The notes beneath the pieces are model-generated. The model did not search any database and had not been told where the DNA came from. It saw nothing but the letters and a program-made list of their open reading frames with translations. Positions 7,903-21,229 of a stretch of 22,995 bases of DNA are shown in pieces. Numbering within the stretch: position 1 is the stretch's first letter; each line of letters opens with the position of its first letter. This DNA comes from a virus. Position numbers and translations under genes: made by a program. The DNA is taken from the IMG/VR virus record IMGVR_UViG_3300032278_002495, positions 1-22,995 of that record. One strand, 5' to 3'.

Positions 7903-10900
7903 GTGAACGCCGCCGAAGACCGCACACCGCCCAAGTGGACAGATATCGCCAATGACCCAGATTTTCAGGCCGCTGACTGGCAGACAAAGCAGCGCGTGCG
8001 AGGCGAGTTCTACCGCCGCGCCATTGAGCCCAATACGCCAGCATCGCTGCGCGAAGATGTGCAAAGCCAGTTCTTTGCCCGCACGGCATCTGACGTGTTT
8101 GGTGAGCGCGAAACACCCAATTTAGCCAGCAACGCTTTGCGTAACGCTGGTGAGCGCGGCCTCGATTTGGCGGGCAATGCGCTGCAGTTCGTGGGCAACG
8201 TGGCAGACCGTGGAGAGCAGGCAATTACCGACGCGCTTGGAGGCATTAACCCGGGCGTGATCGGTGGCAGCGTTGACGAGATGCGCGAGCGGGGCTACGA
8301 ACCGGATGTGGCGCTAGGTGGCTTTGGCCTAGACTTCACGATGCGCGCCAAGCCAGAGGATACCAGCACCGGGCTTATCGACACTGGGCAGGCGGTTGAA
8401 GACATTAGCCTAGGCTACCAGCCTAACTACACGATTGACCGTGCCCTTGATGAACCAAGCATTAGAACCATCGCGGGCGCTGCTGCCGAGCAAGGGCCAG
8501 CAGCACTGGCCGATATGGCAGGCCTAGTGGTAAGTCTGCCTGCCTACCTAGCGGCGCGAACACAGGAGATAGGCGAAGGCCGTGTTGAGAACGACAACCG
8601 CGAAGGAATGCCGGAAGGTCGCGATTATGCCGTCTCTGGCCCGACGGCTGCCGCCTCTGTGCTGCTAGACCGCTTTGCTCTTGGCCGATTACTTCCAGGC
8701 AGTGGAAATGCGGTAACTAGCGCACGACAAATACCCGGGGCTGTTGGTCGCGCCGCAGCTACAGAAAGTGTTACTGAGGCGATTCAAGAGGGTGGTATTG
8801 AGTACGCTGGGGAGTCTGTGGGCACTGAGACAGGCTGGAATGCCACAACCGCTGCGCGCCGTGCGGCAGGTGGCGTGATTGTTGGCGGCCCCACCGGGGG
8901 CGCTGTGCGAGCTGGTACCGCCGCCATGGAGTTGCGCGGAAATAATCAGCAGGGAAGTGAGCAACCAGAGCCTAGCGAATCCCCTGCTGAGCAATCTTCC
9001 CCCGCTCCAGAGGAAGCGCCGACCCCAGAAGCTGAAACCGCTAATGACGAGGCAATCGGCACCGCTGCCGAACTAATCGCCAAGCCTCGTTTTGAGCTGT
9101 CATCCGCTGAGCGCGAAGTGCGCGACTCCATTAGCTACGGCGATGCCTTTAAGGCTCTGCGAGCGGCTGCTGAAGCGCGCGGCGATAGTGACGCCGTTGC
9201 AGAACTGGACGCCGTTAGCAGCGAGATTTCAGCGGCGCTGGAAGCGGAAACCATAGCGCGCTCGCGAAACGATAGCGACGCTTTCACACCTATTCGTGAG
9301 CAGCTGAAAAGCGCGTCAGAGCGCTTCACGCGTGTAATGGATCGCCTTAACACGCCCGAGGCTGAGAGCAAGGCAAGCGCGCCCAGCGCTAACAAGGATG
9401 GCAACGCCCAGTGGGAAGAGGCTTGGCGCGAGCAAGCCGCCCAAGACGGCATTGCAGACTACGACCCTAACGCCAACCTGCCTGACACCACGATCACGAT
9501 TAACGGTGAACAGGTGGCTGATGAATCTCTGGTGCCGCCCGAAACACTTGACGTTGCGCGCCAAGACGAGCAAGCAGAAGAAGTGACTAAAGAAGTGGGG
9601 CAGCCAGCAGTGGCCCAGCCTGAGCCAGCGCTTGCCCCCGACCAGCCTTCACCCAATCCTGACACCAAGACTCCGCGCCGCGTGCCGGTTGAAAGCATCC
9701 AGGTAGACCCCGAGGCCTACCAGTTCCGCACCGAGGTAAACGATCAGGGCGTGGACACTCGCCTGGAAGGCATCGAGAAATGGGACGACCTACGTGCTGG
9801 CAACCTGATTCTGCATGAGCGTACCGACGGTAGCGTGTACGCTGCTGATGGTCACCACCGCATTAACCTAGCTCGCCAGCTACAACAGCCAGACGTGAAC
9901 GCGATTGTGCTGCGTGAAGCCGATGGCGTTACCGTTGAGGATGCGCGCCGTGCCGCCGCTGAGGCGAACATTGCCGCAGGCAGCGCTACTGCTTTGGATT
10001 CCGCGAAGGTATTCCGTAATAGCAATGGTGATATCGATACGGTGATTCGTGAGAGTAACCTGCCGCGTACCCAGCTTGTGCGCGACGGTGCCGACATTGC
10101 CAAGCTGGACACTGAGCCGTTTGGTGCGGTGCTTAACAAGGTAATCACTGAGAAGGACGGCGCGGTTATCGGTCGTTCTTTTGCCGACCCCGACCAGCAG
10201 CTTGCCGCCGTGGGCGTCTTCCAGCGAGTGAAGCCGACCAACGACAATCAGCGCGAGTTGCTAGCCAATGAAGTGCGCCAAGCAGGCTTTGCCGAAAGCC
10301 AAGGCGAGCAAGGCGGCTTGTTTGGTAATGATCCAGCAGAGTCGCTTATTGGCGAGCGCGTAAAGGTAATGGATAGCCTTCGCCAAACCCTGGTGCGCGA
10401 CAAGCGCTTATTCGCTACGCTGAACGATAACGCCCAAACGGCTGAGCAGGCAGGCAACCGCATTGCCAAGGACCGCAACAACGCCCTACAGGAAACCTCG
10501 GCAGACGCCATTGCACTGCTAGAGCGGGCGACGACCACGCCGGAAATTAACCAGCAGATCAACGACGCCGCGCGCCGTGTGAAGGATGGCGAAACACTTG
10601 CCAGCGTGACGCGAGAACTTAAAGAGGCATTACTAAATGGCACAAACAGCCCAGCAGCGAGCGAAGGACGTACACCAGCACCTAGCAGCGGACAGGCTGA
10701 TCAAGCAGGGCAAGACGCTGGAAGAAGTGAACCAGTACCTGCAAGCAACGACGCACGAACAGCGCGTTCAGGAGAACAACGCCCACGCCCTGGAGCAGGA
10801 GCGCAAGCAGAACCAGCGGTAACTCTAAAGACTGACGGCACGCCTTTCCAAACCCGTCGCGCTGTTGAACTGTCTAGGCGCTTCCGCGACACGCCTAACG

Positions 10901-13900
10901 CCCAGCCCGTTGAAGTAGAGGGTGGATGGGGTTTTGCTGTGGCTGACACGCCTATGCAGAATGCAGAAAGCACTAAGCCAGCAGGCCAGAATGTTAGCGG
11001 CCTTACCTCGTTGCCTTATGGGGGCAAGCGTTGGAACAAGGGCACCAAAACGGCAGAGGAAATGAGCGGCCAGGCGCCTATCGTTGATTACTCCGGTCGC
11101 CGCGTTGTGCTGAAAGACGTTAATGGCGTTACCGTGCCGTTCTATCAAAGCACTGGCGCCGGCGGCAAGGCAGCCACCAAGCCTGGGCAGTGGTATCCAT
11201 TCACCGGCATTGGTAGCGATGGCTGGATTAACAAGCTGGGCGATGCTGATATATCGCAATACTACGGCAGCCCAGCGCTGCGCCAGGCAGCGCAAGAGCT
11301 AGATGCTACGGTTGGTGACATTCGCAGTCGTGACGATATCCCTAAGACCGGCACGACCGGCACCGGCCAGGCGTTTATTGATGCGGTGAACAGTGCCTTT
11401 GATGGACAGCAGGTGTCAGCAAACAATCAGCCTGACTCAAAAATCAACGTTCAATCCAGCGTTGATGCACTAAAAACAGCCGTTGATTCACAGACCTCCG
11501 ATCTGGCCCTCGAAACCCAAACAGAAGAAAGCCTTGCGCAACGCGAGCAGGAAGTTCAGGCCGCTGAACAGACCGAAGCCGACCAGCGCAACCAAGAAGC
11601 GCAGCGCGCCCAAGCAGACGCCGAGGTCGACGACTTTACTCTATCCGGCAGCAATCGCACCGCTGATGTGGCTGCTGCACGCGGGCAGAGTGACCTGCTT
11701 GGCGCGCAGCCAGCGTCTAATGAAAATACTCCGCCAAGCGAGCAGCAGTATTACCGCGACTGGCCACTATTAGACGAGATGCCTGACGGCTGGAAGAGAG
11801 ATCCGACCGCCGGATCACCCTTGGCCAGGTACGAGTTTGCTACTAACGGCCGTAGCGTGCTGTCTGGCCAGCAAGAGCGTGCGTTAGTGCGAATCAGGCC
11901 CGCACCTGCAGCCGGCCAGAACACTGATTCACCTACGGCCCAAGTCCAGCAGGATTTAGCCAACGAAGCGCCCAAGCCCAAGCGCCGTAACCAGCCGCTG
12001 CAATACACCGGCTACTCAGGCGAACAGCGCAGCGTGCGCAGCTATCAAGAGGTTGGTAACTTCCGCATTGCCAAGGTGAACGACAGCCTTTACGAAGTGA
12101 TTAACCCTGATGGTCAAGCCGTTAGCCAGCGAGCGGGGGCGGACGGTGCCGCACAAGAGGCTCAGCGACTAAACGACCTCCCCGCCGACGACCAGCGCTA
12201 CGCTATCGGCCAAAGCGACGCCCGCCCGGTAAGCCGTGACGCCATCGAGGAAGCGCTGGCCAGCTCGCCCGAACTATCCGATGTAACGGTGATCCAGTCC
12301 GCAACCGAGCTGCCGCCGCAATCCATCCTGATGATGGCCTTGCAAGGCGTGACGCCACGCGACGTGCGCGGCCTGTTCGTGGGCGACCAGCTCTATGTGA
12401 TTGCGGATAACGTTGATGACGTACAAGAGGGCGTGCGTACCGCCGTTCATGAAGCCGTAGGTCACAAAGGTATGCGCGCCGTGCTGGGCGACGAGCTAGA
12501 AACAGTCATGCGCCAAGTCTATAACTCGCTACCATTAGATCCGCGAGGACGCGAGGCGCTGAACGAAGTGCTAGAAAGCTACCCGTTCCTTGATCAGTCC
12601 AACCCTGAACATCAGCTTACCATCGCTGAAGAGATGGTCGCCCACCTCACCGAGAAGGGCTGGCAGCCTAACGTAATACGCCGCGCCGTGGCTAAAATCC
12701 GCGAGCTGCTGCGCCGCTACTTCCCCAGCATGAACTGGACGGATGCGGACGTTATGCAGCTATCCGAGCGTTCGCGTGAGTACCTGCGCAGCCAGCAGGA
12801 AAAGGCGCAAGCGAGTACTGATCCTTGGTCAGATATGCGCTTTTCAATGGCTACGCCCCCCGGCGGCAACTTTAATCCCAATGACAGCACCAACTTCGCG
12901 CTGCCTGATGAAACGCTAAGCCAAACCGCGTTACGTAAAATGGCTGACAAAATGAACCGCCTCAAAGTCACGCAAGAAGCTATCAAACAAGCCGGTGGCA
13001 ACATCAATGAAGACAATGATGTGTACCTAGCGGAGGAGCTTTTCCACGGCAAAACAGAGCGTGACTTGAATGAGCTAAGCCGCAACTACGTCGAGAAGCT
13101 AGCCAAAGGCATGGCGGCGCGCGGCATTCAGCAAGAAGAGTTGGACGCCTACCTTTATGCTCGTCATGCTCCAGAGCGAAATGCCCGAATAGCTGAACGC
13201 AATCCTAATGATCCCAAGTACGCAGATGGCGGCTCAGGCATGACTAATGCCGAAGCGTCCGCCATCATGCAAGAGGCCGAAAGTAGCGGCAAGAAGCTCC
13301 GGCTTGAGCGCTTGGCCGCTATCGTGGATGACATGCTGGCACATCGCCGCGAGATCATCCGCGAAGGCGGACTGGAGACGGATGAGGTGCTAGATGCTTG
13401 GGATGCCAGCTATGACTACTACGTACCGTTGAAAGGTTGGGCAAATGATGAAGATGTTCCTGTTGGCCAGGACGGCAGTGGCCGGATGCGTTCTGGTCGC
13501 GGCTATGAGATCGGTGGGCGAGAAACTAAAACGGCGCTTGGTCGCCTATCAAAAGCGGCTTCACCTTCTACGCAAGCGATTGTCGATACCACTGAGTCTG
13601 TTATTCGCAAGCGCAAAAACGAAGTTGGCAATGCCTTGCTATCACTGATCACGGATAACCCAAACCCCGATTTGTGGCAGGTGTTCACCAACAACGACCC
13701 GGATACTCAGCGTACTCAGGTCGAGCGCACTAACCCAGACGGCACCAAGCGTATTGAAGTAGAAGAGCGCCCGGTGGCTATGGAAATGAACGAGCGTTAC
13801 TTCAAAACCAAGAAGGCGGGCCGGACATACTACATTAAGATCAACGACCAGCGCCTGCTGAACGCAATGCGCAATGTAGGGCCAGAGCAGAACAACCTTC

Positions 13901-15630
13901 TGGTACGCACTGCCGCAGCTGGCACGCGCGCTTTATCTGCCATGATGACCAGTTATAACCCAGAGTTCATGCTGTCCAACTTTACCCGAGACGTGCAAAC
14001 GGCGCTGCTCAACGTGGCCGCAGAGCAGACCAGAGACGACGGCAAGATAAAAGGCCAGAAGATTGCTAGGCAGACAGCGAGAGATATTCCACACGCAATG
14101 AAAGCGGCCTATCGAGGGCTGGCTGACCCTGACGCACCGCGAAACACTGAGTGGGATCGTTGGTTTGACGAGTTTATCGAGGACGGGGCCAAAACAGGCT
14201 ACTTCGATATGAAAGACTTGGCTGGCCAAGCCAAAGAGATTAAAAGCATTATTGGTCGCGAGAACGGCGGCACTATGGGCAATATGCTGAAGGCGAAGAA
14301 GACCGTAGCCGACTTCGTTGAGAACATGAACGGCTCCGTTGAAAACGCGGTGCGCCTATCCGCCTACGTCAATGCGCGCAGGGCAGGCATTAGCCGCAAG
14401 AAGGCCGCCAGCTTGGCCAAAAACCTAACGGTCAACTTTAACCGCAGAGGGGAGGCCGGCACTGCGCTTAATGCTGCGTACATGTTCGCCAACGCATCCA
14501 TCCAGGGCACCATGAACGTCGCCCGCACCATGGCCACTGTGAAAGATACGCCGGTGGGCGGTAATAGGATGAACATCTGGGGCCGCATGAACGCCGCTCA
14601 AAAGCTAGCGGTAGGTATGGCCGTAGGCAGTTACGCAATGGCCATGTTCAACCGTATGATGTCAGACGAGGATGATGACGGCGAGCTGTTCTATGACAAA
14701 ATTCCCGGTCACGTTAAAGAGCGCAACCTGATCATCATGACAGGCGGCAAGGACTATGTGCGCATTCCTTTGCCTTACGGATACAACGTGTTCTCCAACA
14801 TTGGCACGCATGCTGAATCCGTTATGTCAGGCAAATCATCACTGACGGAGGCAGGCAAGGACATGACGCTGGCCATTCTTGGAAGCTTTTCTCCCATCGG
14901 CTTCCAAGATTCAGAGGATACATCCAACTTGGTGATGAAAAACCTCACACCTACGCTGTTAGGTTCGGTTACCCAGGTGGCAGTCAATGAAGATTTTGCA
15001 GGCCGCGTGATCTTCAGAGAGAACTTTCATTTTGGCACGCCCAAGCCAGACAGCGCTCTAGCCTTCCGGTCTACGCCATCGGCTTACCAAAGCTTTGCCC
15101 AGTTTATTAACGAGCTCAGCGGCGGCAGCGAGTACCGTTCAGGCAGTGTCGACGTTAGCCCTGATGTACTACAGCACGTGGTCAACTATTACGGCGGCGG
15201 TGCTTGGTCGTTTACTGAGAAAGTGGCCGACAGCATTAAGCGCACAGCGACTGGCGAGACCATCGATGCCCACCGCATTCCGTTTGTGGGCCGCTTCAAG
15301 TCTGAGGTCAATGAATACGGCGATATTCAAACGTTCTACGAGCGCCGCACCGAGGTCGGGCAGCTGCATGAAGAGTTTATCAATCTGCCTAGAGAGGAAG
15401 CGCGTAGCTTCTATGAGGAGTATGGCGGCAAGATTGCGTTGTTTGATATGGCAACGGATCTTGAAAAAACACTGACACAGTTACGCAAAGTGCGCGACGC
15501 CATTGAAGCAGACGACAGGCTGACTGCCGCCGAGCGCGACGAGCAGCTCGACGAGATTGAAGACGCGATGGATAGCGAGGTGGATTTCTTTAACCTGCTT
15601 TACAACCAGGCCGAAGGGACGGTTCAGTAA
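7903..15630 (+). CDS. giant polyvalent ejection protein (ParB-like, zincin, LPD38)
   Basis: 2575 residues from GTG 7903, with AAGGAG six bases ahead. Visible parts in order: an N-terminal helical region with Gly/Ala-rich amphipathic segments (about 180-340) as in ejection proteins; a ParB/sulfiredoxin-like domain at about 590-700 with DGHHR near 648-652; a low-complexity linker at 913-973; a metallopeptidase-like domain with HEAVGH at 1516-1521 and a downstream AEEMVAH near 1575; and a C-terminal large polyvalent-protein domain of LPD38 type from about 1685, best seen at 2010-2200 (NPEFMLSNFTRDVQTAL, VNARRAGISRKKAASLAKNLTVNFNRRGEAG). Such proteins are packaged and delivered with phage DNA. 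Catalytic activity is inferred from motifs only. Confidence 0.8.
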   Translation: MNAAEDRTPPKWTDIANDPDFQAADWQTKQRVRGEFYRRAIEPNTPASLREDVQSQFFARTASDVFGERETPNLASNALRNAGERGLDLAGNALQFVGNVADRGEQAITDALGGINPGVIGGSVDEMRERGYEPDVALGGFGLDFTMRAKPEDTSTGLIDTGQAVEDISLGYQPNYTIDRALDEPSIRTIAGAAAEQGPAALADMAGLVVSLPAYLAARTQEIGEGRVENDNREGMPEGRDYAVSGPTAAASVLLDRFALGRLLPGSGNAVTSARQIPGAVGRAAATESVTEAIQEGGIEYAGESVGTETGWNATTAARRAAGGVIVGGPTGGAVRAGTAAMELRGNNQQGSEQPEPSESPAEQSSPAPEEAPTPEAETANDEAIGTAAELIAKPRFELSSAEREVRDSISYGDAFKALRAAAEARGDSDAVAELDAVSSEISAALEAETIARSRNDSDAFTPIREQLKSASERFTRVMDRLNTPEAESKASAPSANKDGNAQWEEAWREQAAQDGIADYDPNANLPDTTITINGEQVADESLVPPETLDVARQDEQAEEVTKEVGQPAVAQPEPALAPDQPSPNPDTKTPRRVPVESIQVDPEAYQFRTEVNDQGVDTRLEGIEKWDDLRAGNLILHERTDGSVYAADGHHRINLARQLQQPDVNAIVLREADGVTVEDARRAAAEANIAAGSATALDSAKVFRNSNGDIDTVIRESNLPRTQLVRDGADIAKLDTEPFGAVLNKVITEKDGAVIGRSFADPDQQLAAVGVFQRVKPTNDNQRELLANEVRQAGFAESQGEQGGLFGNDPAESLIGERVKVMDSLRQTLVRDKRLFATLNDNAQTAEQAGNRIAKDRNNALQETSADAIALLERATTTPEINQQINDAARRVKDGETLASVTRELKEALLNGTNSPAASEGRTPAPSSGQADQAGQDAGRSEPVPASNDARTARSGEQRPRPGAGAQAEPAVTLKTDGTPFQTRRAVELSRRFRDTPNAQPVEVEGGWGFAVADTPMQNAESTKPAGQNVSGLTSLPYGGKRWNKGTKTAEEMSGQAPIVDYSGRRVVLKDVNGVTVPFYQSTGAGGKAATKPGQWYPFTGIGSDGWINKLGDADISQYYGSPALRQAAQELDATVGDIRSRDDIPKTGTTGTGQAFIDAVNSAFDGQQVSANNQPDSKINVQSSVDALKTAVDSQTSDLALETQTEESLAQREQEVQAAEQTEADQRNQEAQRAQADAEVDDFTLSGSNRTADVAAARGQSDLLGAQPASNENTPPSEQQYYRDWPLLDEMPDGWKRDPTAGSPLARYEFATNGRSVLSGQQERALVRIRPAPAAGQNTDSPTAQVQQDLANEAPKPKRRNQPLQYTGYSGEQRSVRSYQEVGNFRIAKVNDSLYEVINPDGQAVSQRAGADGAAQEAQRLNDLPADDQRYAIGQSDARPVSRDAIEEALASSPELSDVTVIQSATELPPQSILMMALQGVTPRDVRGLFVGDQLYVIADNVDDVQEGVRTAVHEAVGHKGMRAVLGDELETVMRQVYNSLPLDPRGREALNEVLESYPFLDQSNPEHQLTIAEEMVAHLTEKGWQPNVIRRAVAKIRELLRRYFPSMNWTDADVMQLSERSREYLRSQQEKAQASTDPWSDMRFSMATPPGGNFNPNDSTNFALPDETLSQTALRKMADKMNRLKVTQEAIKQAGGNINEDNDVYLAEELFHGKTERDLNELSRNYVEKLAKGMAARGIQQEELDAYLYARHAPERNARIAERNPNDPKYADGGSGMTNAEASAIMQEAESSGKKLRLERLAAIVDDMLAHRREIIREGGLETDEVLDAWDASYDYYVPLKGWANDEDVPVGQDGSGRMRSGRGYEIGGRETKTALGRLSKAASPSTQAIVDTTESVIRKRKNEVGNALLSLITDNPNPDLWQVFTNNDPDTQRTQVERTNPDGTKRIEVEERPVAMEMNERYFKTKKAGRTYYIKINDQRLLNAMRNVGPEQNNLLVRTAAAGTRALSAMMTSYNPEFMLSNFTRDVQTALLNVAAEQTRDDGKIKGQKIARQTARDIPHAMKAAYRGLADPDAPRNTEWDRWFDEFIEDGAKTGYFDMKDLAGQAKEIKSIIGRENGGTMGNMLKAKKTVADFVENMNGSVENAVRLSAYVNARRAGISRKKAASLAKNLTVNFNRRGEAGTALNAAYMFANASIQGTMNVARTMATVKDTPVGGNRMNIWGRMNAAQKLAVGMAVGSYAMAMFNRMMSDEDDDGELFYDKIPGHVKERNLIIMTGGKDYVRIPLPYGYNVFSNIGTHAESVMSGKSSLTEAGKDMTLAILGSFSPIGFQDSEDTSNLVMKNLTPTLLGSVTQVAVNEDFAGRVIFRENFHFGTPKPDSALAFRSTPSAYQSFAQFINELSGGSEYRSGSVDVSPDVLQHVVNYYGGGAWSFTEKVADSIKRTATGETIDAHRIPFVGRFKSEVNEYGDIQTFYERRTEVGQLHEEFINLPREEARSFYEEYGGKIALFDMATDLEKTLTQLRKVRDAIEADDRLTAAERDEQLDEIEDAMDSEVDFFNLLYNQAEGTVQ
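10637..10822 (+). other. nested out-of-frame ORF (61 aa), possible overprinted gene
   Basis: Inside the giant ejection gene, in another plus-strand frame, an ATG at 10637 follows directly after an in-frame TAA, with AAAGAGG about nine bases upstream. It encodes a 61-residue helical, Gln/Glu/Lys-rich protein (QRAKDVHQHLAADRLIKQGK, then a LEEVNQYLQATTHEQRV segment). By my count roughly four fifths of its codons end in G or C (CAG, AAG, CTG, GAC), as in neighbouring genes, whereas only about one third do so in the main frame across the same bases, which there encodes a Ser/Pro/Ala/Gly linker. Either a genuine nested gene or a frameshifted fossil of an older domain. Confidence 0.45.
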
Positions 15631-16631: not shown

Positions 16632-17039
16632 CTATTGCATGCACGCTCTAACAACTGCTTCTTGGGCTTCAGAAATATCAAGGCTATCAACCGCGCACTC
16701 CTGAAGTTCTTTCAGTATTGCGGCGTCAAGCGTGCAGATATCGGAAATAACACCTGAGAACTTCTTCTGAAGCGCTTCGCTTGCCTTGAACTCATAGTAA
16801 ACGTCTAGGCAGACCCAAGTTGTTTTCTGTAGATAGCAGGTATGCAGCGGAAGATGGAAGTTTGGGAATCGGTCTTCAGGCTGGCAACCATAAACATTAC
16901 CACGCCCATGCTGCTTGGAGGTGGTTTTAGCCACGACGGCGACACCGTCTTTGAAGCCCAAGACAACAAATAATTTCTCGCCCGATACGCCATCATGGAA
17001 ATGAAAGTCTCTATCGAAGAACACTGACCCTGGCGTCAC
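16632..17039 (-). CDS. putative Panacea-partner toxin, MazF/PemK-like
   Basis: 135 residues. It starts with GTG at 17039 inside the end of the antitoxin gene (29-base overlap), with GGGGAG about eight bases upstream; a second in-frame GTG lies at 17024. The N-terminal half looks like a small beta-barrel (GSVFFDRDF, GEKLFVVLGF, VAVVAKTTS), reminiscent of the MazF/PemK endoribonuclease fold, where a TS pair follows a strand. A WVCLDVYYEFKA segment and a helical tail follow. Toxins paired with Panacea-domain antitoxins are diverse. RNA cleavage is a plausible activity here but no catalytic residue set can be proven from sequence. Confidence 0.6.
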   Translation of the reverse strand: MTPGSVFFDRDFHFHDGVSGEKLFVVLGFKDGVAVVAKTTSKQHGRGNVYGCQPEDRFPNFHLPLHTCYLQKTTWVCLDVYYEFKASEALQKKFSGVISDICTLDAAILKELQECAVDSLDISEAQEAVVRACMQ

Positions 17040-17592
17040 CGCGCAAGCTCCCCATTAGCTGTTGATGCTCGTTGGCAATAGCCATGACTTCATCACGCTC
17101 TTGCGCTCGCACTGCAAGATCGTAAGGAATTTTTTCTTGTTGCCCGCCCCATTGATTGAACACCTTGTCCCATGGCTGGTTTTCCAGATGGGTCGCTTCA
17201 ATCATGTCTTCGGCCTTATGGTGCTCAAATTCTTTAGCAAGGCGCTCCATAAGCTTGCGCTCTCGCTTGCTGAAATGGGAGCCATCAAATTCAGCCTTAG
17301 GCTTGAAGGTAAGCATAGGGCGACCATACCCAGTGGGTATTTCGGTAAAATCAATCGCCTTTGCCATGTCCGGCTCCGGGCAATTGATCTCGTCAAAAAG
17401 ACGCTGAGGAACCGGCCCCATCTTCCAGGCGTAATAATCCTGACCGGTCACGTTGCGACCAGTATCTTTGAAGTGTTCAAAATCCAGGAAGTAGAGAAGC
17501 TTGAACAGCTTAATCTTCCCGCATTTCTGCGTGTTCTGTGCGAAGTAGATGATCGTATTGATCAGCTTCTCGCGTTCGTGTGTCATTAACAT
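17011..17592 (-). CDS. Panacea (SocA-like, DUF4065) antitoxin
   Basis: 193 residues from ATG 17592, chosen because GAGG sits seven bases upstream; a longer start at 17616 lacks a well-placed site. Residues about 25-65 carry the Panacea signature: KLLYFLDFEHF (31-41) with TGRNVTGQDYYAWKMGPVP following. SocA/Panacea proteins neutralise varied toxin partners, and the downstream overlapping gene is the expected toxin. The order antitoxin then toxin, with a 29-base overlap, supports coupled expression. A stretch of direct repeats at 17657-17674 upstream may be the operator. The family call is strong; the target is unknown. Confidence 0.8.
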   Translation of the reverse strand: MLMTHEREKLINTIIYFAQNTQKCGKIKLFKLLYFLDFEHFKDTGRNVTGQDYYAWKMGPVPQRLFDEINCPEPDMAKAIDFTEIPTGYGRPMLTFKPKAEFDGSHFSKRERKLMERLAKEFEHHKAEDMIEATHLENQPWDKVFNQWGGQQEKIPYDLAVRAQERDEVMAIANEHQQLMGSLRGDARVSVLR

Positions 17593-17656
17593 GGTGGCGA
17601 CCTCGCGTACTGGCATTGCCAGAGCGCTCGATATAGCTCCTGCTGAATTTTTTTGC

Positions 17657-17722: not shown

Positions 17723-18004
17723 TTAGGCCTTCTTATTCTTTTCTCTTTCTTCCATCTGCTTCAGAAGTCTCTCCTCAACCATATCGGCGATCATCGAGGC
17801 CAGCAGCTCCCGGCGCATTTCTTCGGTTAGCTCTGGCTTTTCAATAGAAGATATGAAGGTGTTTTCTGCTTTGAAGCTTTCCTGTAGACGAGCAATAAGC
17901 TCCGCAGTCATGGAGCGGTGATTTTCCTTTGCCGCAATTTTCAGTTTCTCTTTCAGCGACTTAGGTATTTTGAGATTGGTTTGAACTTCGGTGTCTTTAT
18001 CCAT
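17723..18004 (-). CDS. Mnt-like ribbon-helix-helix repressor
   Basis: 93 residues. The N-terminal 45 residues follow the Arc/Mnt ribbon-helix-helix pattern: strand VQTNLKIP, then LKEKLKIAAKENHRSMTAELIARL, very close to P22 Mnt (KLKFRAEANGRSMNSELLQ, from memory). As in Mnt, a charged C-terminal helix follows (EEMRRELLASMIADMVEERL), suited to tetramer formation. It diverges from an Arc-like gene and an antirepressor gene, the P22 immI plan, so it most likely represses the antirepressor promoter in the lysogen. No Shine-Dalgarno precedes the ATG, and a TATATT box lies eight bases before it, so its mRNA may be leaderless. Confidence 0.85.
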   Translation of the reverse strand: MDKDTEVQTNLKIPKSLKEKLKIAAKENHRSMTAELIARLQESFKAENTFISSIEKPELTEEMRRELLASMIADMVEERLLKQMEEREKNKKA

Positions 18005-18012
18005 GTAGCAAA

Positions 18013-18039
18013 AATATAGCCATTTCTCGTTGACAGCAA
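18013..18039 (-). promoter_or_regulatory. candidate promoter of the Mnt-like gene (leaderless)
   Basis: On the minus strand, TTGCTG (18039-18034) and TATATT (18018-18013) are 15 bp apart. The expected start near 18006 is only two bases before the ATG at 18004. The weak -35 overlaps the -35 of the opposing promoter, as expected if a bound repressor activates it. Confidence 0.45.
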
Positions 18040-18058
18040 CGTAGCATTTATCTATATT
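18030..18058 (+). promoter_or_regulatory. Pant-like promoter for arc-ant operon
   Basis: TTGACA (18030-18035), a 17-bp spacer and TATATT (18053-18058) form a near-consensus sigma-70 promoter. Transcription should start near 18065, just before the palindrome GTAGCTTTTTGCTAC (18066-18080). A GTAGC copy at 18041-18045 lies in the spacer. Confidence 0.8.
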
Positions 18059-18100
18059 TTGAAACGTAGCTTTTTGCTACCTATCGAATAAGGAGTATTT

Positions 18101-18259
18101 ATGGCTAACACTGACCCTCAATTCAACCTACGCCTTGACCCTGAGCTGAAGGCTTGGCTTGACGCAAAGGCAAGAGAAACCCGCCTCAGCCGCACTTGGC
18201 TGGTCAACAACCTGATTCGTGAGGCCAAGCGTCATGAAGCTAAAAACCCAGCAGCTTAA
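18101..18259 (+). CDS. Arc-like ribbon-helix-helix repressor
   Basis: 52 residues, with AAGGAG six bases before ATG 18101. The opening DPQFNLRLDPELKAWLDAKA matches the P22 Arc/Mnt strand-plus-helix pattern (PQFNLR in Arc, from memory), followed by the second helix RTWLVNNLIREAKR and a short basic tail. The size equals that of P22 Arc (53 residues). It is the first gene after the strong promoter and precedes the antirepressor, exactly as arc precedes ant in P22. There, Arc turns down both immI promoters early in infection; the same feedback is inferred here. Binding sites are probably the GTAGC repeats upstream. Confidence 0.85.
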   Translation: MANTDPQFNLRLDPELKAWLDAKARETRLSRTWLVNNLIREAKRHEAKNPAA

Positions 18260-18331
18260 AAACGAAGAAGCCCCCGGCGCTGCAACGCCAAGGGCTTCGG
18301 ATTACCACCAACCAACTACGAAAGGTGACGC
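18258..18331 (-). ncRNA. candidate Sar-like antisense RNA
   Basis: A minus-strand RNA of about 70 nt is predicted between arc and ant. An extended -10 (TGC-TAGTAT, 18345-18337) would start it near 18331-18329. It covers the complement of the antirepressor ribosome site (AAAGGTG) and ends at a good hairpin: GAAGCCC and GGGCTTC outer arms with GGCG/CGCC inside (18298-18267), followed by TTCGTTTTT. P22 has an antisense RNA (sar) of nearly the same length in the same arc-ant gap that blocks ant translation. The -35 match is poor; no expression data are available. Confidence 0.55.
18267..18298 (-). terminator. hairpin terminator of the antisense RNA
   Basis: GAAGCCC/GGGCTTC and GGCG/CGCC form an eleven-pair stem with a two-base internal loop. 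T-rich sequence follows only on the minus strand; on the plus strand GGATTACC follows, so it is not a terminator for arc-ant. It could still slow or fold the arc-ant mRNA. Confidence 0.65.
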
Positions 18332-18332
18332 T

Positions 18333-19079
18333 ATGAATACTAGCACACATCTCATCACAATCGAATCCGCCGAGATTGACGGGCAGCTCATTGAAACCGT
18401 CAATGCTCGTGAACTGCATTCATTCTTAGATGTGGGCGTGCGTTTTAATGACTGGATTTTTCGCCGCATCAATGAATACGGGTTCGTTGACGGCCAGGAC
18501 TTTTACTCAGAATTGAGTAAAACCCCAAACGGCGGGCGTCCCAGCAAGGAGTACGCTATTTCTCTCGATATGGCCAAGGAGCTATCCATGGTCGAGCGAA
18601 ACGAGAAGGGCAAGCAAGCGCGTCAGTATTTCATCGAGTGCGAGCGCAAGGCTAAGCAAGTACCCAGCGACCCTATGCAGGCTCTATCAGACCCCGCCAC
18701 GATGCGCGGCTTATTGCTGAGCTATAGCGAGAAGGTGCTTGAGCTTGAATCCCAGGTAACAGAGCAAGCCCCGAAGGTAGATGCCTATCAACGCCTATCC
18801 GATGCAGAAGGCTCGCTGTGCATCACTGATGCAGCCAAATACCTTCAGGTGAAGCGCAAAGACCTGATTAACTACCTGTACTCCAATGGGTGGATTTATC
18901 GCCGCGTAGGCAACAAAAATTGGCTTGGCTACGACACGAAGCGCAAGCAGCAACTGGTAACGCACAAAGCGACCACCTACACGCTGGATGATGGCACCGA
19001 AAAGCTTAGTGAGCAGGTACGCATCACCACAAAGGGGTTGGCCAAACTAGCGCTGACCTTTCGGGAGGACGCCGCATGA
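18333..19079 (+). CDS. phage antirepressor, AntA domain plus KilAC
   Basis: 248 residues from ATG 18333, with AAAGGTG upstream; a longer in-frame start at 18219 would run through the Arc-like gene and is rejected. Residues about 20-110 are an AntA/AntB antirepressor domain (VNARELHSFLDVGVRFNDW, GGRPSKEYAISLDMAKELSM, KGKQARQYFIECE). Residues about 125-240 match the KilAC/ANT C-terminal domain (SLCITDAAKYLQVKRKDLI, NGWIYRRVGNKNWL, VRITTKGLAKLAL). Antirepressors bind and disable the main lysogeny repressor, which is not in this window. Expression is likely held down by the Mnt-like and Arc-like proteins and by the candidate antisense RNA. The stop overlaps the next start. Confidence 0.9.
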   Translation: MNTSTHLITIESAEIDGQLIETVNARELHSFLDVGVRFNDWIFRRINEYGFVDGQDFYSELSKTPNGGRPSKEYAISLDMAKELSMVERNEKGKQARQYFIECERKAKQVPSDPMQALSDPATMRGLLLSYSEKVLELESQVTEQAPKVDAYQRLSDAEGSLCITDAAKYLQVKRKDLINYLYSNGWIYRRVGNKNWLGYDTKRKQQLVTHKATTYTLDDGTEKLSEQVRITTKGLAKLALTFREDAA

Positions 19080-19516
19080 ACCGTTTATTTTATGCTAGCA
19101 GCATGGTTAGTAACGCGGCCAGCTTGCTTACTGCTCTTTCAGCCGATGTTGAAGATATGCACTACGGGGCCCTAATGGGCACCATCCAGCAGTTGGAGTT
19201 ACTTCAGGAGGCTATCAATCTGAAAGCCACGGCGCTTACTGGCAGTGAGGCTCTTCAAATAGATGTAGTGTCTATGCTGGGAGAAGGCGGACTATCTGAA
19301 GACGTGGAGGCTCTGCTCGATGATTATGTTTCAGTTCGCCTCAGTAGTATTGAAGCGGCAGTGCTTAGCGTACAGTCGCGATATTTGGAATCAGACGACA
19401 AGCCGCTCGCCATGATCGGCCGCTCGATGTTTGAAGCGCGGCGCTGGATCAGCGCCGCGACGCATGCGGTAAATGCAGAACTTGATGCAAAGCTTTCCGT
19501 TCGCTTAGTCGCTTAA
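19076..19516 (+). CDS. hypothetical protein co-transcribed with antirepressor
   Basis: 146 residues, start ATG 19076 overlapping the antirepressor stop, with GGGAGG upstream. Largely helical, with acidic stretches (ALSADVEDMHYGALMGTIQQ, LGEGGLSEDVEALLDDYVSV) and no recognised family, signal peptide or membrane segment. A hairpin with a T-run follows within 45 bases, so it is likely the last gene of the operon. Because it is coupled to the antirepressor, it should be switched on together with it, so an induction-linked role is reasonable but unproven. Confidence 0.7.
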   Translation: MNRLFYASSMVSNAASLLTALSADVEDMHYGALMGTIQQLELLQEAINLKATALTGSEALQIDVVSMLGEGGLSEDVEALLDDYVSVRLSSIEAAVLSVQSRYLESDDKPLAMIGRSMFEARRWISAATHAVNAELDAKLSVRLVA

Positions 19517-19717: not shown

Positions 19718-19964
19718 GGGTGGCTCCTGTTCGTTTTAAACCAGGATAGCAGGGCAGGGGTGTAGCGGGGAGGTATGGCAGGCAAAGCACTCAAGCATGG
19801 CGGCATGCTTGAAAGCTCTGTGAGGAGTTTGTGAGCGCGTCACCTTTGCTGACGTGAGTAACAGCACGTTATGCGCCGCTGATGTAGCAAATTCACGTTG
19901 CACCCAGCAGATAACTATATAAATATCAGTTGCTTATATTAGGGCGAGGTATGGTTTCGGTGTC
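19718..19964. other. noncoding stretch between last phage gene and att scar
   Basis: No supported gene. It holds a 9-bp hairpin at 19791-19812 and then AT-rich sequence (about 19910-19940) leading into the tRNA fragment. Attachment-site arm sequences would be expected here, but no clear repeated integrase sites are visible. Confidence 0.5.
19791..19812. repeat. 9-bp hairpin near the att end
   Basis: TCAAGCATG and CATGCTTGA flank a GCGG loop. It is not followed by a T-run, so it is not a terminator. It may bind a dimeric protein or be part of the attachment region. Confidence 0.55.
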
Positions 19965-20022
19965 TTGAAAACCGGCATAGGTTAATAGCCTATCCAGGGT
20001 TCGAATCCCTGTCCCTCCGCCA
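19964..20022 (+). other. 3' fragment of tRNA-Ser(UGA), att scar
   Basis: The fragment has the anticodon loop CTTGAAA (UGA at 19966-19968), a 3' anticodon arm, the long variable arm ATAGG/CCTAT typical of tRNA-Ser, a T arm CAGGG/CCCTG around TTCGAAT, the acceptor strand TCCCTCC, and G plus CCA ending at 20022. No matching 5' acceptor strand (GGAGGG) lies upstream. Integrases that target tRNA 3' halves leave exactly this partial copy at one prophage end; the intact gene should be at the other end. Confidence 0.8.
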
Positions 20023-20512: not shown

Positions 20513-20785
20513 TTAACGGCTGTGGCTGTGCTCTTGAATGTAAGTCTTTAGCGCCTGATCTATGCGCCGTTGCCAGCCTTCCCCTTGCGCCTTGAAGTGC
20601 TCGATCACTTCCGGCGATAAGCGGATGGAAGTCTTTACCTTGGTGGGTGCCTGCTGGCGGCCACGCTGACCAATGGCGCGTTGTAGGTTAGCGGGCAACA
20701 CCTCAGACATAGGGCGCATCTGCTTAACGTCCTGGTCTGTGAGTTCTCTTACTTCACCGTCTTTATTCGTGAGCCGCGTTTTCAT
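20513..20785 (-). CDS. brnA: BrnA-type antitoxin
   Basis: 90 residues ending in the family's DNA-binding part: SIRLSPEVIEHFKAQGEGWQ then RRIDQALKTYIQEH, the usual BrnA 'FKAQGxGWQxRIxxxL' signature. It overlaps the upstream brnT gene by 23 bases, the standard toxin-antitoxin order. BrnA neutralises BrnT and represses the operon through its ribbon-helix-helix domain. It lies on the chromosomal side of the att scar, so it belongs to the hotspot or host rather than to this prophage. Completeness looks normal. Confidence 0.85.
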   Translation of the reverse strand: MKTRLTNKDGEVRELTDQDVKQMRPMSEVLPANLQRAIGQRGRQQAPTKVKTSIRLSPEVIEHFKAQGEGWQRRIDQALKTYIQEHSHSR

Positions 20786-21038
20786 AGCGCCTTACCTCCC
20801 GTGTGTTGGCTTTCCTCAGGCTGATAACCCGTATGCCGCCTTCAATGGGCGTAAAGCACACCACGTGTACCCGTTGCCCGATCTTGCCCAACCCGATGAA
20901 GCGCTGTTCTGGATAGTCGTAGCGGTCATCTTCATGGAATAGCGCGCCGTCCCAATCAAAGCGTTCAACCGCTGTGAAAGGTAAGCCGCGCTCCTCCTCA
21001 TTGCGAGCGCTTTTGTTCGGGTCAAAGTCGATTATCAT
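20763..21038 (-). CDS. brnT: BrnT-type ribonuclease toxin
   Basis: 91 residues from ATG 21038; a TTG at 21059 adds seven residues but has no better ribosome site. The sequence follows the BrnT pattern: MIIDFDPNKSARNEEERGLPF, DxxYDYPEQRFIGLGKIG, VHVVCFT, then ISLRKANTREVRRYE. BrnT is a RelE-fold ribonuclease that inhibits translation. No Shine-Dalgarno is visible before the ATG, and TACAAT lies eight bases ahead, so a leaderless message is possible. Paired and overlapping with brnA downstream. Confidence 0.85.
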   Translation of the reverse strand: MIIDFDPNKSARNEEERGLPFTAVERFDWDGALFHEDDRYDYPEQRFIGLGKIGQRVHVVCFTPIEGGIRVISLRKANTREVRRYENAAHE

Positions 21039-21229
21039 GTTATTTAATTGTATGGACAAAAAGAAAGAAAGGAAAGTTCTATCTAGCTGGCGCTAGGGTC
21101 ATAGCTACGCCGTTGTTTGCTGGGGTAGGGTATTCCATTATTAGCTTGGGCTGCCTGGCCACCGCTTGAAAGCGGGCAAGCCGGGGAAGGTAAAGCGCCC
21201 ACCTACCTTAGTGTGTTGCGGGGGCTGAG

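Follow-up and report, generated by a model that had tools for sequence, protein, structure and literature searches.

A predicted sar-type antisense RNA ahead of an AntA/KilAC antirepressor gene in a phage immI-like module

Does the gap between the arc-like gene and the antirepressor gene (ant) of this viral DNA encode an antisense RNA like sar of Salmonella phage P22, a textbook case of antirepressor control by antisense RNA? In P22, sar occupies positions 15021-15090 (minus strand), arc ends at 15022 and ant starts at 15091; hence, the length and the place of sar match those of the RNA considered here, as the original prediction had proposed. We analysed the whole 22,995-nt stretch that contains this locus, referred to here as the window. 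Given the position, the strand, the conserved structure, the conserved promoter motif and the homology to P22 sar, we conclude that the locus is very likely (a probability of about 0.88) a P22-sar-type, cis-encoded antisense RNA within a complete immI-like module, consisting of an mnt-like gene, a Pant-like promoter, an arc-like gene, sar and ant.

The module and the predicted RNA

The order of the module, which is in the 15.6-22.9 kb part of the window, is that of P22 immI, with a divergent mnt gene, a promoter, arc and ant. The mnt-like gene (17723-18004, minus strand) encodes a 93-aa repressor that matches the Pfam Arc family (E 3.7e-12) and is 28% identical to P22 Mnt across 69 aa (E 6e-9). 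The Pant-like promoter for arc-ant (TTGACA-17-TATATT; 18030-18058, plus strand) matches the consensus at 11 of 12 positions, and the arc-like gene (18101-18259, plus strand) encodes a 52-aa ribbon-helix-helix repressor that matches Pfam RHH_1 (E 4.6e-6) and, weakly, Arc (0.052), and that has the motif PQFNLR in common with P22 Arc. A gap of 73 nt separates the stop codon of the arc-like gene from the ATG of ant (18333-19079, plus strand), which encodes a 248-aa antirepressor with AntA (PF08346, E 4.8e-27) and ANT/KilAC (PF03374, E 2.3e-25) domains. By its sequence, the Shine-Dalgarno of ant is AAAGG (18321-18325, plus strand), 7 nt 5' of the ATG and under the predicted antisense RNA.

The intergenic region between the mnt-like and arc-like genes (18005-18087) contains a 10-nt inverted repeat (GTAGCAAAAA/TTTTTGCTAC) and a 25-nt direct repeat, which are likely repressor operators; relatives with different repressors carry different repeats at the operator-like region.

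The original prediction was that a leftward extended -10 within the start of ant, and a hairpin followed by a T-tract on the minus strand, define an RNA of ~70 nt in the arc-ant gap, and we recovered each of these elements. The predicted RNA is ~68-72 nt long, with its 5' end at ~18330 and its 3' end at ~18258-18260 (minus strand), as judged from Rfam family RF00262, a held-out covariance model (R2, described below) and the fold. Its putative promoter is a Psar-like extended -10, TGCTAGTAT (TGC-TAGTAT; 18345-18337, minus strand), that lies in ant codons 2-5 (codon 5 partly) and consists of TGn and a hexamer matching TATAAT at 4 of 6 positions. The 5' stem-loop (18305-18328, minus strand), identified from the fold with support in relatives, includes the complement of the ant Shine-Dalgarno. 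Next comes an intrinsic terminator hairpin of 14 bp with the loop TGCA (18298-18267, minus strand), detected by terminator scan, fold and covariation, and then the T-tract TTCGTTTTT (18266-18258, minus strand). This hairpin is the strongest by pair count among 8 terminator-like sites in 3 kb, where 3.3 +/- 1.8 are expected. The claim that the T-tract is limited to the antisense strand also holds, since the letters that follow the hairpin on its plus-strand side, GGATTACC, include no T-run. The minus-strand RNA has a folding energy of -33.0 kcal/mol (z = -4.4), which none of 200 shuffles equalled; with -26.4 kcal/mol (z = -2.25), the plus strand folds less well over this stretch, because several pairs that are G-U on the minus strand are A-C on the plus strand. 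The 5' stem of the window RNA is weak by itself (z -0.55).

Homology to P22 sar

Comparison with a covariance model of sar, which had been put forward as a check, supported the prediction: Rfam sar (RF00262) matches the RNA at full length, in the right place and on the right strand (18330-18263, minus strand), but its score of 32.9 bits falls under the gathering cut-off of 43 bits, and the sequence of the window RNA has diverged from that of P22 sar. Seven related loci have a match to the same family in their arc-ant gaps, the only sar matches in 70 kb. With our own models, homology to sar was established in both directions. Model R1, made from 49 gaps with P22 left out, identified P22 sar as the best match in the P22 genome (15018-15090, minus strand, 56.4 bits). 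Model R2, made from 35 gaps of other phages, with P22 included and the window and its nearest kin left out, identified the window RNA at 18329-18258 (minus strand) with 50 bits and an E of about 1e-10; elsewhere in the window, it matched only a weak plus-strand image of the hairpin. The training sets of both R1 and R2 contain hairpins gathered with a pattern. This choice partly fixes the outer 8 base pairs, but it places no constraint on the inner pairs, on the 5' part or on anything beyond the RNA. In a phylum-wide sample of 398 genomes, ordinary terminators scored up to about 44 bits with R1; hence, a model score is no proof by itself and means little below this level, and we rejected the Rfam match, which is also under its cut-off, as proof in its own right. 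A match to ctRNA_pGA1 (28 bits, cut-off 45) is weak and overlaps the same hairpin, and blastn of the 91-nt gap against phages returned short weak matches only.

Another reading is that the hairpin is a plain leftward terminator that shields arc/mnt from antisense transcription begun in or beyond ant, with no promoter of its own and no regulation of ant. It would serve well as an intrinsic terminator, and similar hairpins act as ordinary terminators elsewhere, at matches away from ant. We nevertheless consider this explanation unlikely: the held-out model match covers the whole ~70 nt, structure and conservation are seen in the rest of the RNA as well as in the terminator, and an extended -10 at a fixed distance accompanies the hairpin across unrelated ant genes.

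The sar reading is further described by direct comparison with P22. In both phages, the RNA lies in the arc-ant gap on the strand opposite ant, is ~70 nt long and has two hairpins; from its predicted ends, the window RNA would measure ~68-72 nt, with the terminator at the end of arc. The two also share the terminator GAAGCCCT...GGGGCTTC and the leftward promoter motif TGCTAnnnT in the first ant codons (a predicted promoter in the window). The RNA covers, and is complementary to, the ribosome-binding site of ant (as predicted for the window), and a divergent mnt or mnt-like gene is present in each. In contrast to P22, where the target is an Ant of the P22_AR_N/P22_AR_C family, the target in the window has AntA and KilAC domains, and we detected no significant similarity between the window ant protein and P22 Ant. 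The phage also differs from P22, and the host probably does.

A second comparison is the c4 antisense RNA of phages P1 and P7, which lies on the same strand as ant, upstream of it in the same transcript, and acts in trans. Like the RNA proposed here, c4 is a small RNA directed against antirepressor translation, which it blocks near the ribosome site (PMC12197685). In the window, by contrast, the strand opposite ant bears the structure, the terminator and the RNA's own promoter motif, and the RNA overlies its target. An Rfam scan of the window gave no match to the c4 family.

A similar layout is seen in the Pseudomonas phages PS-1 and UFJF_PfDIW6, whose arc-ant gaps are 69-70 nt long and contain a hairpin and, on the minus strand, a -10-like motif; the ant of PS-1 is of the AntA type as well. 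No antisense RNA is annotated at the arc-ant junctions of these two phages; the description of UFJF_PfDIW6 names two Arc proteins and an antirepressor, and we found no mention of an antisense RNA in its text (PMC8951688).

Conservation of structure and promoter motif

Comparison of the arc-ant gap among relatives, proposed originally as a further check, bore out the prediction: at the same position, relatives have kept the hairpin with its T-tract, the 5' stem and the -10. Compensatory changes affect five inner pairs of the terminator stem: 73 cells changed on both sides, compared to 23 after shuffling, and none of the 500 shuffles reached this number. For the 5' stem, the mean z among 20 diverse representatives is -1.66 on the minus strand versus -0.35 on the plus strand, and the 5' part is more stable on the minus strand than on the plus strand in 50 of 51 gaps. 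G-U pairs form only on the minus strand, while the A-C counterparts would pair only on the plus strand. The ratio of G-U to A-C pairs was 39:9 for the inner part of the terminator stem and, for the 5' stem, 36:12; since G-U pairs outnumber A-C pairs, the folded molecule is the minus-strand RNA.

These strand differences argue against the alternative that the hairpin belongs to no antisense RNA and instead affects translation or processing of the arc-ant message on the plus strand. Admittedly, the genes on either side of the hairpin are probably cotranscribed, and the plus strand too is able to fold, as noted above. Nonetheless, the excess of G-U pairs, the greater stability of the minus-strand 5' part and the restriction of the T-tract to the minus strand together make a plus-strand element very improbable.

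The promoter motif is conserved with the structure. On the minus strand, TGNTANNNT occurs, its hexamer at -14 to -7 from the ant start, in 40 of 51 distinct cassette-linked gaps, but in only 10 of 105 control ant genes, taken from loci without the cassette; the Fisher p-value of 7e-18, like our other p-values, is optimistic because common descent and recombination link the homologous loci, and the figures are best read as guides. The -10 falls in ant codons 2-6 and is read in two frames, as M-x-S-I-A (21 cases) or M-x-N-N-S-T (23 cases); hence, it is the DNA motif that is kept, and not one peptide. A -35 is apparent in many relatives (mean best score 4.0 of 6, versus 2.8 for shuffled sequence). 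In the window it is poor, reaching at most 3 of 6, and P22 Psar, with 3 of 6, is equally poor under the same measure.

Distribution, mosaicism and proposed action

A search of 2.9 million viral contigs with a pattern for the hairpin only identified 62 distinct loci. In 54 of these, an ORF with a ribosome site starts 28-37 nt past the hairpin, compared to 3% of random positions, where ORFs were counted if they had at least 75 codons or ran off the contig. A short Arc-like ORF ends at the T-tract in most hairpin loci; some cases with P22_AR_N have no arc. A survey with R1 only, covering 201 genomes in the family of a Halomonas relative, gave 12 matches. Ten of these have the -10 and an ORF whose start is at most 3 nt from the predicted 5' end of the RNA; the other two, both in one genome, lack this arrangement. 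Relatives include Halomonas and Vreelandella prophages. A homologue search with Arc alone returned one distant match, and with Mnt four. Junctions between ribbon-helix-helix and ant genes in several more distant relatives (L004, L014, L017, L021, L022 and L114) lack a strong minus-strand terminator; therefore, the cassette is not general to repressor-antirepressor pairs. On a separate phage contig, Rfam sRNA-Xcc1 has a match over its cut-off (L200:4050-4134).

Close relatives show exchange on both sides of the cassette. Locus L001 matches the window at 98% over a stretch that begins at the end of arc and takes in ant; its cassette is identical and its arc different. Two others, L082 and L083, have flanks and cassette in common with the window, combined with a different arc, a different operator sequence and a KilA-N antirepressor. 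Between two exchangeable genes, the cassette is the constant joint. These comparisons also bear on whether the window holds a decayed cassette carried along by recombination, its structure kept and its promoter too weak to fire. Consistent with decay are the poor -35 in the window and locus L085, where the hairpin is partly degraded and lies ahead of a non-ant ORF. We give this idea little credence, however, since L001 has an identical cassette, since its structure is intact in L082-L084 even though the shared stretch differs in sequence by about 17-20%, and since Psar of P22 has no better -35.

The cassette recurs among many unrelated phages, and the gene past it encodes, depending on the phage, a P22_AR_N, Bro-N, AntA, KilA-N, ORF6N, Rha or DUF3077 protein. 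It is probable that sar is a widespread modular antisense cassette that stays constant while repressor and antirepressor are swapped, and that its targets belong to seven or more unrelated families (P22_AR, Bro-N, AntA, KilA-N, ORF6N, Rha and DUF3077). Such a cassette would comprise a promoter in the first codons of the target, a 5' stem over the Shine-Dalgarno complement and a terminator, with the promoter dictating the N-terminal codons of the target; it would account for the look-alike first codons of unrelated antirepressors. PMC13397905, citing Schaefer and McClure 1997, states that P22 sar occurs in several phages. What appears to be new here is a sar cassette ahead of an AntA/KilAC antirepressor unrelated to P22 Ant, and in the literature that we searched, mostly open-access papers, we found no description of a modular cassette across unrelated target families. 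The same cassette beyond enteric phages, ahead of unrelated antirepressors, would be a general regulatory part; its natural variants offer a ready set for testing pairing requirements, and its presence can flag antirepressor genes that were annotated without the accompanying RNA gene.

At several loci (L184, L234, L240, L198 and L261-L264), the cassette precedes short ORFs that encode no recognisable antirepressor: the ORF of L184 is DUF3077, and those of L198 and L261-L264 encode proteins of about 90-100 aa without assignment. Hence, sar may control proteins other than antirepressors.

P22 sar blocks translation of ant by pairing with the mRNA, and its expression and role have been described (PMC12197685, PMC13397905). 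By homology with P22, we infer transcription, pairing, a translational block and a role in lysogeny for the window RNA. RNA polymerase would initiate leftward at the extended -10 that lies within the first codons of ant, and the ~70-nt transcript would stop at the hairpin and T-tract by the end of arc. The RNA would be the complement of the arc-ant gap, with the part complementary to the ant Shine-Dalgarno carried in the 5' stem-loop; once paired with the arc-ant mRNA, it would keep ribosomes from entering at ant and leave arc unaffected. Antirepressor levels would thereby be kept low wherever the arc-ant message is made, for example during late readthrough into the module. The immI module of P22 is in the late region, and late transcription passes through it (PMC2629481). 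In the window, the module follows large plus-strand genes that resemble virion genes; hence, late readthrough is a plausible occasion for such control.

The surroundings of the module include further features. Ahead of it, one ORF of 2575 codons spans 7903-15630 (plus strand). A gene with a SocA-like/Panacea antitoxin domain (17011-17616) overlaps a 135-aa ORF without a family match (16632-17039), and the two (16632-17616) are possibly a toxin-antitoxin pair adjoining the immunity module. A 146-aa ORF without a family match (19076-19516) overlaps the ant stop codon and stays with ant in L001. Relatives have in common a tRNA-like stretch (19943-20022) with weak Rfam matches to tRNA-Sec and plastid tRNA ends, and with no ARAGORN prediction; it is probably an attachment-site remnant at the right end of the prophage. 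Just past it are genes for a BrnA antitoxin and a BrnT toxin (20513-21059), in a flank that is partly shared with L083.
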